Assembly (NCBI GenBank): GCA_024640085.1
Contig: JAHEFR010000071.1
Span: 1 to 64,000, forward strand
Length of the DNA: 64,000 nt
Origin: Gammaproteobacteria bacterium
GTDB lineage: Bacteria; Pseudomonadota; Gammaproteobacteria; Steroidobacterales; XN24
Direction: 5' to 3'
The first letter of the stretch is position 1. Every line of letters begins with the position of its first letter. Made by a program: the position numbers and the translations under genes. Under the pieces are notes generated by a model, which saw only the letters and a list, made by a program, of their open reading frames with translations, made no database searches and had not been told where the DNA came from. This document shows, one piece after another, positions 55,414 to 61,638 of this stretch.

Positions 55414-57822
55414 ATGAGAAAGCTGTACCCCCTCGTCCTCGCCCTGTTCGGACTGTCGCTCGCTGGCTGCTTCTCCGATTCCGGTGATCCAGGCCCTGAT
55501 CCCGAGACCGGCAGCACCGGATTTGAGAACCCGATTGGTGTCTCGCCTGACGACGTGCCAACGGGGTTCTACGCATCCTTCGATCCTACCGTCGGACTGA
55601 TGCCCTACCCCAACGACATACTGGGATTTCTCGCCAACGGCAGCACCGACGGCACACTCAATCTGACCAGCGTCAGTTTTCAGCTTGCCGCCAGTTCGTC
55701 CTTCGGCGCGCCGCTCAACAATATCGATGGATTTTCGATCTTCTCTCGAATGCAGGCGAACTTCTCTGACTCCGTCAATGGAGCCAGCCTGAATCCGCTC
55801 TCCGTATTCCTGATCGAGGTGGCCCTCGATCTCTCGACCCGGGCCGTGATCGGCCTGTCGGACCAGACGCTCTGCAAACTCGCCCTGGCGCCCCAGGCCG
55901 CCTGCCCCCCCGAGATATTCGGCACCGGCAACCCGTTCCTCATCCAGGGCGTCGACTACAACCTCTCCGTGGCGCCGGACGTCGGCTCCGGGGGCCAGAC
56001 CATCCAGCTCGACCCGCTGCGGCCGCTGAATTCGTTCACGTTCCAGCAGTTCACACCGGGCGCCATCAACGGCTACCTGATGATCGTGACCAACAAGGTC
56101 ACCGATAGTGCCGGCACCCCGGCCTCGGCCGACGCGGCCTACGAGCAGATCAAGCAGGGCTATCTGGCCGGGCTCATCCAGATTCCCGAGGACCCCTCAC
56201 AGATCGATCCGGATTCATTGACCCAGGAAGAGCTGCTGGCGCTGTTCATCGCCGCCCAACTGGCGACGGTGGACGCGTTGTCCGGAGCGGGGGCACCGCT
56301 GACGGTAGAAGACGTGGTGGTGACGGCGAGCTTCTCGCCCCAGGACACCATGACCGTCATACAGACGGTCAACGGGTACGAGAGCCTGAGGAATCGCCCG
56401 TCGCAGATCGCCCAGGCACTCCTTCCCGTAGACGTGCCCGTGCCTGGTGTCGGTGTCCTTCCGGCCGGCACGCCGGTGACGACTGGCTTGCTCCGCACAG
56501 CCGGCGGCTTCCCCCCGGAGGCGAGCAAGAATAACGGCAATATCTACGTCGGCGGGGTCAACATCCCGTATTACCAGCAAACGCCGACGGAGGCGTCGGG
56601 GGGTTACAACGTCCTGTCCAGCTACTGGGTCGCCGAGGCCGGTGGCAACGTACTCGGGGATCCCGACAGCACCGTGATCTGCCGGTGGAACCCGAACCCC
56701 GTGCTACGGGACAACATTACCATCCCCCTCCTGATGGCCATCCCCAACGACAATTCGGCGTGGGTGCAGGCGGCGAAGGCCCAGGGGTTCCCCGTGCCAC
56801 TTCCGACGGGGTGGCCGGTGGTCATCTATCAGCCCGGGTTTACCCGAAACCGGACGGACCTGCCTCTGGTGGCGGAGCCCTGGCTCGACCAGGGTTTCGC
56901 GGTGATCAGCATCGACCTGCCGTTCCATGGCGTCACGGCGACCGATCCCGCCCAGAGCCTGACCGCCTTGCTCCGTGTGCCGGGAACCACGGAGCGGACC
57001 TTCGATCTGGATTTGAGGAATAACGCGGACCCCGCCATCCTGGTTCCGGACGGGCTGATCGACCCGTCATCGGTCAACCTGCTCAACCCCGCGCCCAACG
57101 GGCTGCTGACCACCAGGGACAATCTGCGGGAGGCGGCAGTCTCCATGCTGTCCTTTGCCCGCAGCGTGGGCGTTATGGATATCGACGGCAATCCGGACAC
57201 GACGGATTTCGATGCCTCGCAGATCAATTACGTCGGCCATTCGGGCGGAGCGATCCTGGGCGCGACCCTGGTCGCCTTGTCGGATGATTTCGCGACCATC
57301 AGCCTGGCGACGTCCGGCGCGGGTATCGTCAAGCTGCTCGCGGACAGCGACGTCGAGGAGGGATTCGGATTCATCCTCACCGGCCTGCAGAAGGGCCTGT
57401 TGACGCAGGGGATCCTCCCGAATAGCACCACATACAACAACTACCTGCGTGATATGCAGAATATCTGGAACGCGGGCGACCCCATCGGCAGCCTGCACGT
57501 AGGGATAAACAGTCCGACGCCGGTATATGGCAACCTGCTCAACACCGACGTGGCCGTCGTCCCTTCTGCCAGCCTGAGGGCCTATGACGGACTTGGATTG
57601 CCCCAGATCACGACACCTGGCGTCAATTTCGCTTCGAAGGGGTTCACCCGGATCCTCGATGGAGCCCATAGCAGCTACATCAATCCCAGTGTCAACCTGG
57701 CCGCCACCACCGAGATGCAGACGGAAGTGGCGGTTTTCGTGGGTGGCAACGCCCTGGCCGGGATACCCGGCATGGGACAGGTCATCCTGATCCAGGATCC
57801 GTCGATTGTGGAGACCAACTAG
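55414..57822 (+). CDS. Large surface lipoprotein with alpha/beta hydrolase domain (Pla-1/cef or VolA-like lipase)
   Basis: The 802-residue protein has a signal peptide with the lipobox LAGC, then a long extracellular N-terminal part with Ig-like or beta-rich segments. The C-terminal hydrolase domain holds the nucleophile elbow in NYVGHSGGAILGATL (GxSxG), with PVVIYQPGFTRNRTDL as the oxyanion region. This layout and the length match the Pla-1/cef family of extracellular lipases and the VolA lysophospholipase lipoproteins. The ribosome binding site GGAGGAG and ATG at 55414 are clear. It would act at the outer-membrane surface. A strong terminator follows. Confidence 0.8.
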   Translation: MRKLYPLVLALFGLSLAGCFSDSGDPGPDPETGSTGFENPIGVSPDDVPTGFYASFDPTVGLMPYPNDILGFLANGSTDGTLNLTSVSFQLAASSSFGAPLNNIDGFSIFSRMQANFSDSVNGASLNPLSVFLIEVALDLSTRAVIGLSDQTLCKLALAPQAACPPEIFGTGNPFLIQGVDYNLSVAPDVGSGGQTIQLDPLRPLNSFTFQQFTPGAINGYLMIVTNKVTDSAGTPASADAAYEQIKQGYLAGLIQIPEDPSQIDPDSLTQEELLALFIAAQLATVDALSGAGAPLTVEDVVVTASFSPQDTMTVIQTVNGYESLRNRPSQIAQALLPVDVPVPGVGVLPAGTPVTTGLLRTAGGFPPEASKNNGNIYVGGVNIPYYQQTPTEASGGYNVLSSYWVAEAGGNVLGDPDSTVICRWNPNPVLRDNITIPLLMAIPNDNSAWVQAAKAQGFPVPLPTGWPVVIYQPGFTRNRTDLPLVAEPWLDQGFAVISIDLPFHGVTATDPAQSLTALLRVPGTTERTFDLDLRNNADPAILVPDGLIDPSSVNLLNPAPNGLLTTRDNLREAAVSMLSFARSVGVMDIDGNPDTTDFDASQINYVGHSGGAILGATLVALSDDFATISLATSGAGIVKLLADSDVEEGFGFILTGLQKGLLTQGILPNSTTYNNYLRDMQNIWNAGDPIGSLHVGINSPTPVYGNLLNTDVAVVPSASLRAYDGLGLPQITTPGVNFASKGFTRILDGAHSSYINPSVNLAATTEMQTEVAVFVGGNALAGIPGMGQVILIQDPSIVETN

Positions 57823-57853
57823 GTTTCAGCCCCCGCGAAGAAGGGGCGACTCG

Positions 57854-57882
57854 AAGGGCGGCCGCATGGCCGCCCTTTTTTT
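57854..57882 (+). terminator. Rho-independent terminator after the lipoprotein lipase gene
   Basis: AAGGGCGGCC, a GCAT loop and GGCCGCCCTT followed by TTTTT form a perfect 10-bp stem with a U tract, 32 bases past the stop. Confidence 0.93.
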
Positions 57883-57958
57883 GGACTGGGCTGCCCCCCA
57901 TCCGGCACCAAGTCCATCGCCGCTTCGGTTACGATATCCGCCTCCCAGGATGCCGCCC

Positions 57959-58972
57959 ATGACCTCCACGAAGACTCCCGAAATAGACTCCGCCGGCAAC
58001 GGCACATGCGAAACCGAAAGCGGCCCGGAGCGCCGCAGGGGCTTCTTCCGTCGGCTACGTCAGCGACTCAACAAGGGGCAGTCCTGGCTGACATACGACC
58101 TGGCCCACCTGCTCCCGGGAGGCAAGCCCAGCGAGGACTTCCTCGAAGAGATGGAGACCCGGTTGCTGTCCGGCGACGTGGGCGTAAACGCCACGACGCG
58201 GATCATGGAGGGGCTGGACAAGAAACTCTGGCGGGATGAGCTGAAGGATGCCGGGGCGGTAGTGGATACGATCCGCGCCGCAATGCTGGATATTCTCGCG
58301 CCTTGCGAAGCCCCCCTCGCGATCCCCGGGGCGCCGCGACCGTTCGTCATCCTCATGGTCGGCGTCAACGGTTCCGGCAAGACCACCACGATCGGAAAGC
58401 TCGCCCGCCGGTTCAGGGACCAGGGGCTGAATGTCATGCTTGCCGCGGGAGACACCTTCCGCGCCGCCGCGGTGGAGCAGTTGCAGGTCTGGGGCGATCG
58501 TAACGGGGTGCCGGTTATCGCCCAGCAGGCCGGCGCCGATCCCGCGGCGGTGATGTTCGACGCCCTGGAAGCCGCCAGGGCCCGCGATGCAGACGTCCTC
58601 ATCGGAGACACTGCCGGGCGCCTCCACACACAGGACAACCTCATGGAGGAACTCAAGAAGGTGAAGCGCGTGCTCACCAAGCTCGATGCCTCGGCGCCCC
58701 ATGAAACCCTGATCGTGCTGGACGCCAGCCTCGGCCAGAACGCGCTGGTGCAGGCGGCGCGCTTCCACGAAGCCGTCGGGCTGACGGGAATCGTCATGAC
58801 CAAGCTGGACGGCACTGCCAAAGGGGGTGTCCTGCTGGCAGTGGCGGAGAAACTGGGAGTGCCGATCCGGTTCATCGGCATCGGCGAGTCGGCGGAGGAC
58901 CTGGACGAGTTCCGCGCCGGCCCGTTCGTGGAAGCGTTGCTGGGAACCGGCGGCGGGACGGAATCCCCGTGA
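57959..58972 (+). CDS. ftsY: Signal recognition particle receptor FtsY
   Basis: The 337-residue GTPase has the NG domain: GVNGSGKTTTIGKLARR (P loop), GDTFRAAAVEQL, GDTAGRLHTQDNLMEEL and MTKLDGTAKGG. The N-terminal acidic A region is short (under 30 residues), with FFRRLRQRLNKGQSWL after it. I chose the ATG at 57959 because AGGA sits 8 bases upstream. An ATG three codons earlier overlaps that ribosome binding site. It docks SRP-ribosome complexes at the membrane. The GTG of ftsE overlaps its stop (GTGA). Confidence 0.96.
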   Translation: MTSTKTPEIDSAGNGTCETESGPERRRGFFRRLRQRLNKGQSWLTYDLAHLLPGGKPSEDFLEEMETRLLSGDVGVNATTRIMEGLDKKLWRDELKDAGAVVDTIRAAMLDILAPCEAPLAIPGAPRPFVILMVGVNGSGKTTTIGKLARRFRDQGLNVMLAAGDTFRAAAVEQLQVWGDRNGVPVIAQQAGADPAAVMFDALEAARARDADVLIGDTAGRLHTQDNLMEELKKVKRVLTKLDASAPHETLIVLDASLGQNALVQAARFHEAVGLTGIVMTKLDGTAKGGVLLAVAEKLGVPIRFIGIGESAEDLDEFRAGPFVEALLGTGGGTESP

Positions 58973-59640
58973 TCCGGTTCGAACACGTCTTCAAACGGTA
59001 TCCGGGCGGACGCGAGGCCCTGGCGGGCGTCGACCTCGCCATGGAGTCCGGTGACATGGCATTCCTGACCGGCAGGTCCGGCGCGGGCAAGAGCACGATG
59101 CTCAAGCTCATTGGTCTACTCGAGCGCCCCACCCGCGGCCAGGTCATCGTCGGCGGCCGCAACACCGACGGCATCGGCCGGCGTCAGATCCCGGCATTCC
59201 GCCGGCAGATCGGCATGGTCTTCCAGGATCACAAACTGCTCCATGATCGCACGGTGTTCGACAACGTGGCCCTCCCGCTGGTGATCCGCGGCATCGGGAG
59301 GAAGGAAATCGGCAAGCGCGTCCGGGCGGCCCTGGATCAGGTCGGGCTGCTGCATACCGAGAAGGTCAAGCCGATGACACTGTCCACGGGAGAACAACAG
59401 CGCGTCGGTATCGCCAGAGCAGTGGTCAGCAAGCCTTCACTCCTGATCGCCGACGAGCCGACCGGCAATCTGGACCCGGACCTGTCCCTGGAAATCATGC
59501 GGATTTTTGAGCGATTCCACGACGTGGGAGTGACGGTGCTGATCGCGAGCCACGACCTGCACCTGATTGGACAGCTCGGCCACCGGCGCATCGAGCTGGT
59601 CGATGGCGGCGTGTCCGGCGGGAGCCCTGCCGATGGCTAA
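58969..59640 (+). CDS. ftsE: Cell division ATP-binding protein FtsE
   Basis: The 223-residue ATPase starts with GTG at 58969, overlapping the ftsY stop. Walker A is GRSGAGKST, the signature is LSTGEQQRVGIARA and Walker B is LLIADEPTGNLDP. The Q loop reads GMVFQDHKLL. With FtsX it regulates cell wall hydrolases at the division site. The ftsX start lies inside its last codons. Confidence 0.96.
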   Translation: MIRFEHVFKRYPGGREALAGVDLAMESGDMAFLTGRSGAGKSTMLKLIGLLERPTRGQVIVGGRNTDGIGRRQIPAFRRQIGMVFQDHKLLHDRTVFDNVALPLVIRGIGRKEIGKRVRAALDQVGLLHTEKVKPMTLSTGEQQRVGIARAVVSKPSLLIADEPTGNLDPDLSLEIMRIFERFHDVGVTVLIASHDLHLIGQLGHRRIELVDGGVSGGSPADG

Positions 59641-60670
59641 ACCCATGGCGCGACCCAGGACCCGTCGCCCGGAGCGCCCGGGCAGGCCCCCCCGGCCGTC
59701 GGCGCGGCCGAAGCGCGAGCGCGCGTTCCGGTTCCGATGGCCGTCCCTGTCCAGCGGTCTGGCGGATCATGCCCGGGTCCTGGTGGCGAGCCTGGGGCAG
59801 CTTGCGGCCCAGCCGGTGTCCAGCGTTATGACAGTGGCGGTCATCGGCATTGCCCTGGCCCTGCCGGCCGGCCTGCAGCTGCTGGTGTCCAACGCCCGGA
59901 TCCTGAGCGGCCACTGGGAGGGCGCGGCCGAATTGTCGGTCTATCTCAAGGAGGATGTGAGCCTGGACGCTGCCCGCAAGCTGGCGGACGTGCTTGTCGC
60001 GGATCCGGAGATCGCGGCCGTCAGGCTGATCTCCGCCGACGAAGCGCTGGCGGAATTCAGGGAATATTCCGGTTTCGGCGCGGCCCTCGACGTGCTTCAG
60101 GACAATCCACTGCCCCATGTGCTTGTCCTGCTGCCCGCCGGAAGCGAGGCGTCCGCGGACACCCTGGACAGGCTGCGCCGCCGACTGGCCGAGACGCTGC
60201 CCGCCGATCAGGTCCAGGCGGACACGGACTGGGTCGCCAGGCTGCAGGCGATGCTGGAGCTTGCCCGGCGAACGGTATTGCTGGCCGGGCTGCTGCTGGC
60301 GCTCGGAGTGGTCATCATCGTCGGCAACACCATCCGCCTTGACATACAGAATCGCCGTGACGAAATCGAGGTCACCAAGCTCATCGGCGCCACCGACGCC
60401 TTCATCCGCAGACCATTCCTCTACACGGGCATCTGGTACGGCCTGATGGGGGGCCTCCTCGCCCTGGCCCTGGTCACCGTGTCCCTGGTCGCACTCGAGG
60501 ATCCGGTTCGGCGACTGGCCGGCCTCTACGGCAGCGCCTTCAGTCTGAGCGGCCCGGGTGCCCGCGGGAGCGCGATCATTGCCGGAGCCGGGATGGCGCT
60601 AGGCTGGCTGGGCTCCTGGATCTCCGCGACCCGCAACATGCGTCGGATCGAGCCCGGTGGGCAGCAGTAA
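59633..60670 (+). CDS. ftsX: Cell division protein FtsX
   Basis: The 345-residue membrane protein has a basic N-terminal tail rich in Arg and Pro (residues 2-45), a first helix (VMTVAVIGIALALPAGLQLL), a periplasmic loop of about 120 residues, and three more helices in the C-terminal half. GNTIRLDIQNRRDEIEVTKLIGA is the family signature. The ATG at 59633 overlaps the end of ftsE by 8 bases. The long basic tail is similar to that of other gammaproteobacterial FtsX. Confidence 0.94.
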   Translation: MAKPMARPRTRRPERPGRPPRPSARPKRERAFRFRWPSLSSGLADHARVLVASLGQLAAQPVSSVMTVAVIGIALALPAGLQLLVSNARILSGHWEGAAELSVYLKEDVSLDAARKLADVLVADPEIAAVRLISADEALAEFREYSGFGAALDVLQDNPLPHVLVLLPAGSEASADTLDRLRRRLAETLPADQVQADTDWVARLQAMLELARRTVLLAGLLLALGVVIIVGNTIRLDIQNRRDEIEVTKLIGATDAFIRRPFLYTGIWYGLMGGLLALALVTVSLVALEDPVRRLAGLYGSAFSLSGPGARGSAIIAGAGMALGWLGSWISATRNMRRIEPGGQQ

Positions 60671-60714
60671 CTTCCTGTTTTAGCTATATTTATGACATGG
60701 AACTCGACCGGCAC

Positions 60715-60741
60715 TTAGCACTCTAATGGATCGAGTGCTAA
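60715..60741 (+). promoter_or_regulatory. CIRCE element (HrcA operator) upstream of rpoH
   Basis: TTAGCACTC, nine bases (TAATGGATC), GAGTGCTAA matches the CIRCE consensus at every conserved base. HrcA binds this site to repress heat-shock genes. It lies 31 bases upstream of the rpoH ATG, over the likely promoter. Confidence 0.93.
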
Positions 60742-60744
60742 AAT
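60715..60744 (+). promoter_or_regulatory. Probable sigma-70 promoter of rpoH
   Basis: TTAGCA (60715-60720) and an extended -10 TGCTAAAAT (60736-60744) are separated by 18 bases. Both boxes lie in the CIRCE arms. Transcription would start about 20 bases before the ATG at 60772, just ahead of the GGAGGAAAGG ribosome binding site. Confidence 0.5.
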
Positions 60745-60771
60745 AGCGAGTCGTCGGAGGAAAGGTCATAT

Positions 60772-61638
60772 ATGAGCACAGCCCTGGTACAGAGGAATCT
60801 CCAGTTCCTGCCGTCCGGACCGGTCGGCAGCGTGGATGCGTACATGCAGGCTGTTTCCGTCATCCCGGTGCTGACCGAGGAGGAGGAGCAGTTTCTGGCG
60901 GGCCGCTTCCAGGACGACGGCGATCTCGATGCCGCCCGGCAGCTCGTGCTCTCCCACCTCCGCTTCGTCGTCCATATCGCCCGCGGTTATACCGGCTACG
61001 GCCTGCAGCTCGGCGACCTGATCCAGGAAGGCAACATCGGACTGATGAAGGCGGTCAAGCGCTTCGATCCGACCGTTGGCGTGCGGCTTGTCTCTTTCGC
61101 GGTCCACTGGATCCGAGCGGAGATTCACGAGTTTGTGCTGCGCAACTGGAGAGTCGTCAAGGTCGCCACCACCAAGGCCCAGCGGAAGTTGTTCTTCAAC
61201 CTGCGCAAGGCCAAGGCGCATCTGGGATGGCTGAGCGCGGACGAAACAAGGGCGGTGGCAGAGGATCTGGGCGTCTCAGAGCGGGACGTGACCGAGATGG
61301 AGCAACGCCTGTCCGCGCGCGACCTGGCATTCGACCCGGCGCCGAACGCCGGGGACGACGATACCGTGTATACGCCAGCTGCCTACCTGCCGAGCCCGGA
61401 GTCCGATCCCGCCTTCAGCGTGGAGCGGGATGACTGGGAGACGGCGGCATCCGATCGCCTGCAGGTGGCCATGGAGCGGCTGGACGAGCGCAGTCGCCAT
61501 ATCCTCGAAGCGCGGTGGCTGACGGAAGACAAACGCACCCTGCAGGACCTGGCTGACCATTACGGTGTATCCGCCGAGCGGATCCGTCAGATCGAAGCCA
61601 ACGCCCTGAAGAAATTACGGGGCATGATGATCGTCTGA
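60772..61638 (+). CDS. rpoH: RNA polymerase sigma-32 factor RpoH
   Basis: The 288-residue sigma factor has region 2 ([20 protein letters not shown] and [37 protein letters not shown]), the RpoH box [12 protein letters not shown] and region 4 ending [21 protein letters not shown]. It directs transcription of heat-shock genes. The length is usual. It starts at 60772 with a strong ribosome binding site, right after the CIRCE element, and is the last gene after ftsYEX, the usual order. No sequence features of its RNA thermosensor were checked. Confidence 0.97.

Follow-up and report, generated by a model that had tools for sequence, protein, structure and literature searches.

In Escherichia coli, the sigma-E promoter of rpoH, the gene for sigma-32, is named P3. 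The gene is driven there by sigma-70 as well as by sigma-E, as described in PMC11609203. CIRCE, the operator of the HrcA repressor, has been predicted before rpoH in Geobacter sulfurreducens, at position -51 (Rodionov et al., 2004; PMC545781, Table 8). According to PMC8533110, GroE modulates the binding of HrcA: in Campylobacter jejuni it stimulates HrcA binding to DNA and heat inactivates the repressor, and the model of HrcA titration was first put forward for Bacillus subtilis. Here we describe a gammaproteobacterial locus whose sequence suggests that HrcA probably gates a compact double promoter of rpoH, one part for sigma-70 and the other for sigma-E.

The window, by which we mean the whole stretch of DNA analysed (64,000 nucleotides), carries ftsY, ftsE, ftsX and rpoH in this order on the + strand, with 101 nt between the end of ftsX and the start of rpoH. 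The features are as follows.

57806..58972, + strand: ftsY, start codon uncertain (TIGR00064, 345 bits)
58969..59640, + strand: ftsE (TIGR02673, 284 bits)
59738..60670, + strand: ftsX, start codon uncertain (TIGR00439, 348 bits over 59738-60667)
60699..60705, + strand: predicted sigma-E -35 box GGAACTC, its GAAC starting 15 nt before CIRCE (from conservation of GAAC)
60715..60741, + strand: CIRCE operator (predicted HrcA site), a 9-9-9 inverted repeat with 18/18 consensus bases
60715..60720, + strand: predicted sigma-70 -35, TTAGCA, in the left CIRCE arm (consensus scan)
60722..60726, + strand: predicted sigma-E -10, TCTAA, with TC from the left-arm end and TAA from loop positions 1-3 (from the 22-nt spacing)
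60736..60744, + strand: predicted extended sigma-70 -10, TGCTAAAAT, in the right arm plus AAT (consensus scan)
60756..60760, + strand: probable ribosome-binding site GGAGG (read off the sequence)
60772..61638, + strand: rpoH, sigma-32, 288 aa (TIGR02392, 407 bits, cut-off 323, equivalog; NF005143, 422 bits)

The CIRCE reads TTAGCACTC-TAATGGATC-GAGTGCTAA and is separated by 30 nt from the ATG of rpoH (60772). It is the single match in the window at ≤3 mismatches. A chance origin was considered and rejected, the expectation being 0.01 per window at that stringency. The original prediction of a perfect operator before rpoH, TTAGCACTC-N9-GAGTGCTAA, is thus borne out with 0/18 mismatches; its right boundary, 60744, comprised the CIRCE and the AAT that completes the sigma-70 -10. 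No terminator-like site was found within 60600-60800, and the ftsX side is a possible source of read-through into rpoH.

The assembly scanned (3.19 Mb, 73 contigs, 95.8% complete) encodes rpoE (312 bits) and hrcA, the latter in a cluster of the order hrcA-grpE-dnaK-dnaJ. A search for hrcA had been proposed with the original prediction as a check on it; the gene was found (TIGR00331, 343 bits, cut-off 197), and its absence from the genome is rejected by this match. A search for other CIRCE copies had also been proposed, at groESL and at the hrcA-grpE-dnaK cluster. The whole-assembly scan located one before groES/groEL, with 1 mismatch, and no further ones at ≤3 mismatches, the hrcA-grpE-dnaK-dnaJ cluster included. 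Since CIRCE sits at groESL and rpoH and not at that cluster, we predict that in this genome HrcA acts on groESL directly and on grpE-dnaK-dnaJ only via rpoH. The grpE gene is preceded by a strong sigma-32-like site, CTTGAAA-13-CCCCAA (12/13 bases). The best such site upstream of hrcA scores 8/13, no higher than the shuffle background (one consensus was used; shuffling the sequence ahead of hrcA base by base 100 times gave maxima of 8-9/13). Upstream of groES, a 10/13 match, the last bases of which fall on the start codon, is not credited, and CTTGACT sites score 9/13.

The operator at rpoH is widely shared by relatives of the host. The sample of the order consisted of 59 genomes including the host, 57 of them with rpoH (G040 and G048 are without). 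A CIRCE with ≤3 mismatches and a 9-nt loop lies ahead of 52 of the 57 genes, and 42 of these sites are perfect. One more genome, G055 (L016), has a CIRCE with a 10-nt loop before rpoH and shows both promoter signatures; it stands outside the 52 and, added by eye, brings the total to 53/57. The four rpoH genes without the operator (G017, G030, G042, G053; 94-95% complete) all belong to one genus, and these genomes have neither an hrcA match nor a CIRCE anywhere in the genome. Joint loss of hrcA and CIRCE in the order may have been one event. Three other genomes of the order (G009, G018, G056) have kept CIRCEs though they have no hrcA match.

The class-wide sample, one genome per family (n = 143), contains rpoH in 130 genomes at E ≤1e-65 and hrcA in 102 (98 over cut-off, with partial sub-cut-off calls in G124, G151, G180 and G188). 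Presence of rpoE was scored at E ≤1e-50 (107/143; 97 over the curated cut-off). For G089 the first of two rpoH matches was used, and four rpoH upstream regions were positioned by match coordinates. A CIRCE (≤3 mismatches) precedes rpoH in 96/130 genomes overall, 88/93 of those with hrcA vs. 8/37 of those without (Fisher 9e-17); this and the other Fisher p-values overstate independence because the genomes are related. At ≥90% completeness, the figures are 80/85 and 4/30. The same loci read backwards gave 0/130 matches at ≤3 mismatches. The five hrcA-bearing exceptions are G071, G083, G094, G129 and G178. Of the eight genomes with a rpoH CIRCE and no hrcA, four are 62-85% complete and four (G074, G132, G185, G192) 97-99%. 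CIRCE at rpoH is the rule among the sampled hrcA-bearing Gammaproteobacteria. The wiring had originally been seen as a departure from E. coli; it is one, in that E. coli rpoH has no CIRCE, but it is no oddity, being shared by 88/93 of the sampled hrcA-bearing members of the class. In two genomes (G068, L332; G192, L344) an extra right-arm-like stretch, AGAGTGCTAAAATTT and ATGCTAAAATTA, respectively, abuts the 5′ side of the rpoH CIRCE, as if duplicated.

What distinguishes the rpoH operator is that promoter elements appear to be built into it. A sigma-70 consensus scan of 60600-60800 returned a sole promoter, TTAGCA-18-TAAAAT, with TG before the -10 (shuffles give 0.1). The site has 9/12 consensus bases, a spacer of 18 and the pattern TGnTAnnnT. 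TTAGCA has 4/6 bases of the -35 consensus, which we count against the model. The claim that a sigma-70 promoter lies within the CIRCE arms finds support in this lone match at 60715-60744. At the end of the -10, three bases past CIRCE, a T is present in 52/52 order-level and 86/96 class-level rpoH sites vs. 0/16 groESL CIRCEs, the controls being 16 sites from the CIRCE loci retrieved, a subset of all groESL sites. That the T might be part of the HrcA site itself is not preferred, as none of the 16 groESL CIRCEs carries it.

The two arms also vary differently among the 95 class-level sites with a 9-nt loop. The commonest variant of the left arm is TTGGCA, closer to TTGACA, with A changed to G at position 3 in 26/95; the right-arm mirror of this position is altered in 2/95. 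Drift on the left against a steady mirror on the right is expected if the left arm doubles as a -35 and the right as a -10. Right-arm position 3 is altered in 9/95 sites and its left mirror in 1/95, which the dual role of the arms does not explain.

A single promoter had been envisaged originally. The sigma-70 site is indeed present, but this reading is incomplete, having missed an overlapping sigma-E-like site, GGAACTC-N16-TCTAA. The host's rpoE promoter has an identical distance from GAAC to TC, 22 nt. In the order, 45 genomes have an rpoE match above the cut-off; in the 20 rpoE upstream regions examined from this set, GAACT is followed by TC 22 nt on in 18 and 23 nt on in 2, with the -10 reading TCTA in 17 regions and TCAC in the other 3. 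At rpoH, GAAC lies 14-16 nt ahead of CIRCE in 46/53 sites of the order (for L030 the distance was taken as 15, not the automatic value of 7). The loop starts with TAA in 33/52 and CAA in 5/52, or with either in 38/52 vs. 0/16 groESL CIRCEs. GAAC 16 nt ahead is found in 2/16 of these controls (L054 and L056, one genus), where the loop starts with CTC. The groESL CIRCEs of the order (e.g., L036-L040, L054, L056) are preceded by CTTGAAA...CTATTA, which by eye has the look of a sigma-32/sigma-70 hybrid.

The exceptions in the order are few. GAAC is missing at 7/53 sites, five of them in genomes with no RpoE match over cut-off (G011, G018, G031, G043, G054); in the other two, G025 and G056, which do encode RpoE, the box differs from GAAC by one base. 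Conversely, GAAC is present without a full RpoE match in G013 (82% complete) and G044 (73%), and with partial RpoE matches in G015 and G024. In G014 and G027 it is accompanied by the loops CCT and CCC.

In the class-wide sample, where 13-17 nt upstream of CIRCE were searched, GAAC is found 13-16 nt ahead in 64/96 CIRCE sites and exactly 15 nt ahead in 51; any other distance accounts for ≤10 sites each. All 64 are among the 85 sites of rpoE-bearing genomes vs. 0/11 in genomes without rpoE (Fisher p 1.5e-6), and the box is missing at 21 of the 85. Position 3 of the loop, the end of the sigma-E -10, is A in 57/64 sites with GAAC vs. 12/32 without. The loop starts at the 64 sites are TAA (20), TCA (11), AAA (6) and rarer others. 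Among the class rpoH regions that lack CIRCE, a strict sigma-E pattern is found in 3/34, so that retention of the sigma-E site after CIRCE loss, the state of E. coli, is not general at that strictness. Two genomes with no hrcA match, G134 (L321) and G132 (L272), have a GAAC box beside a decayed CIRCE (4 and 3 mismatches, respectively), a possible intermediate state towards the E. coli arrangement.

The composite is also recognizable when genes are ignored. A gene-blind scan of a genome collection with the pattern GAAC-N10-12-CIRCE and a YAA loop gave at least 117 matches. Among the 117 listed, 112 sit 6-99 nt before rpoH on the same strand; of the remaining five, L180 and L197 are cut off by the end of their stretch, L124 and L125 are records from Clostridia, and L183 shows no rpoH match. 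Carriers among the matches listed include Woeseiaceae, Haliea, Halioglobus, Chromatocurvus, Alcanivorax jadensis, Dyella, Rhodanobacter, Ectothiorhodospira magna and Aromatoleum buckelii. The nearest rpoH proteins among the matches listed, that is, within composite-bearing genomes only, are of two Woeseiaceae MAGs (70-71% identity). Three MAG records titled Bordetella parapertussis (L157), Klebsiella pneumoniae (L158) and Rhodospirillales (L116) carry such an rpoH; the titles are perhaps wrong. In an exact phylum-wide scan the composite was found in 5/398 genomes including the host, all within the class and four before rpoH, a number that says little on frequency because many of the genomes are from few families and exact matching misses variants. 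In the fifth genome, G129 (contig C8, 47854-47895; L370), the GAAC-CIRCE composite lies just ahead of clpB; this genome has hrcA and an rpoH without CIRCE. Here the operator module may have been put to a second use.

From the operator, hrcA, rpoE, the promoter-like elements, their geometry and their co-conservation, all present in the sequence, we propose the following course of events. RNA polymerase with sigma-70 would use TTAGCA/TGCTAAAAT and polymerase with sigma-E would use GGAACTC/TCTAA. HrcA on CIRCE would cover the -35 and -10 of sigma-70 and the -10 of sigma-E, and because the bound repressor covers their elements, neither holoenzyme would start rpoH. When GroE is occupied by misfolded cytoplasmic protein, or when HrcA is inactivated by heat, HrcA would leave CIRCE; release under either condition is proposed by analogy. 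With HrcA gone, sigma-70 would yield a basal pulse of sigma-32, to which sigma-E would add under envelope stress. Sigma-32 would then turn on the remaining regulon, a sigma-32-like site being present before grpE, and groESL would be derepressed directly by the same release of HrcA. Binding by HrcA, exclusion of polymerase, the releasing signals and the sign of the response at rpoH are inferred; taken together, we consider the gating of a double promoter the probable reading.

Other readings of the locus can be weighed against the same data. HrcA might repress just one rpoH promoter, that of sigma-70, and the GGAAC box and TAA loop might be incidental. The consensus match in 60600-60800 fits this simpler picture, and the T that closes the -10 is more widely kept than GAAC (86/96), also at 91% of the 32 class-level sites without GAAC. 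An incidental box, however, should not recur at one exact distance in 51/96 class-level sites, track the presence of rpoE and show the spacing of rpoE's own promoter, and we regard the sigma-E element as unlikely to be incidental. A perfect inverted repeat could, on the other hand, be a relic or be bound by another protein, HrcA no longer controlling rpoH here. Eight of the 37 class genomes without hrcA do keep the CIRCE at rpoH; the other 29 do not have it, and in two genomes with no hrcA match, G132 and G134, the site has decayed (3 and 4 mismatches, respectively). The host has a perfect site, an intact hrcA and a retained groESL site, and for it we think this reading highly improbable.

It is also conceivable that local promoters are minor and that CIRCE is mainly an operator or roadblock on read-through from ftsY-ftsE-ftsX, or an RNA hairpin within that transcript. 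The end of ftsX on the same strand 101 nt upstream, with no terminator-like site in 60600-60800, makes some read-through plausible. The conservation of sigma-70 and sigma-E elements in and around CIRCE argues for local initiation, and an mRNA begun at the predicted local starts would contain no more of CIRCE than the right arm and so could not fold into the hairpin. We consider this explanation very unlikely as the main role of the site, and prefer the double promoter gated by HrcA.

If true, sigma-32 synthesis hinges on the state of both the cytoplasm (GroE/HrcA) and the envelope (sigma-E) through one fused CIRCE: about 45 bp join the HrcA repressor and the sigma-32 activator, usually taught as alternatives, and sigma-E envelope stress. 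For many bacteria it would be predicted that sigma-32 rises without hrcA and that sigma-E has an effect on rpoH only once HrcA has been released. There is perhaps an even chance that the ancestral gammaproteobacterial heat-shock circuit was a cascade topped by HrcA, and that the circuit of E. coli is the remnant after the loss of HrcA and its operator, with the sigma-E promoter left. In this light, the model built on E. coli looks derived. Lineages without HrcA would then have had to shift the gating elsewhere, e.g., to rpoH translation or sigma-32 turnover.

Among described systems, Geobacter sulfurreducens is like the host in having a perfect CIRCE before rpoH and groESL also in the regulon (PMC545781). 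Unlike the host, whose cluster has none at ≤3 mismatches, it carries a CIRCE at hrcA-grpE-dnaK-dnaJ. It is a single delta-proteobacterial case, and an overlap of sigma-E and sigma-70 elements is not described in the available text of PMC545781. Apart from the CIRCE before Geobacter rpoH, nothing of this arrangement is described in the accessible portions of PMC545781, PMC1978210, PMC3135505, PMC3989490, PMC11609203, PMC9866376, PMC8533110 and PMC10696704. In the excerpts of the open-access literature searched we found neither a CIRCE/sigma-E composite nor a general gammaproteobacterial link of HrcA to rpoH; Permina and Gelfand (2003), on HrcA regulons of beta-, gamma- and epsilon-proteobacteria, or RegPrecise may list rpoH. 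Thus, CIRCE before rpoH was already predicted in 2004, for Geobacter sulfurreducens, and the CIRCE/sigma-E composite appears, from these partial sources, to be new.

The operator and the repressor family are those of the Bacillus subtilis type of HrcA/CIRCE system, which serves groESL and dnaK operons. The placement differs: at the 16 groESL sites a promoter-like sequence is seen, by eye, ahead of the operator, whereas the rpoH operator has its promoter elements within the arms and loop. The rpoH upstream region of E. coli K-12 is without CIRCE (the best match in 260 nt has 7 mismatches), and the absence of hrcA from E. coli, stated in the original prediction, agrees with the lack of an hrcA family match in that genome, one of 14 controls. 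E. coli K-12 nevertheless shares with the host the gene order ftsE-ftsX-rpoH, and before its rpoH stands GAACTT...TCTGA, with the same 22 nt from GAAC to TC.
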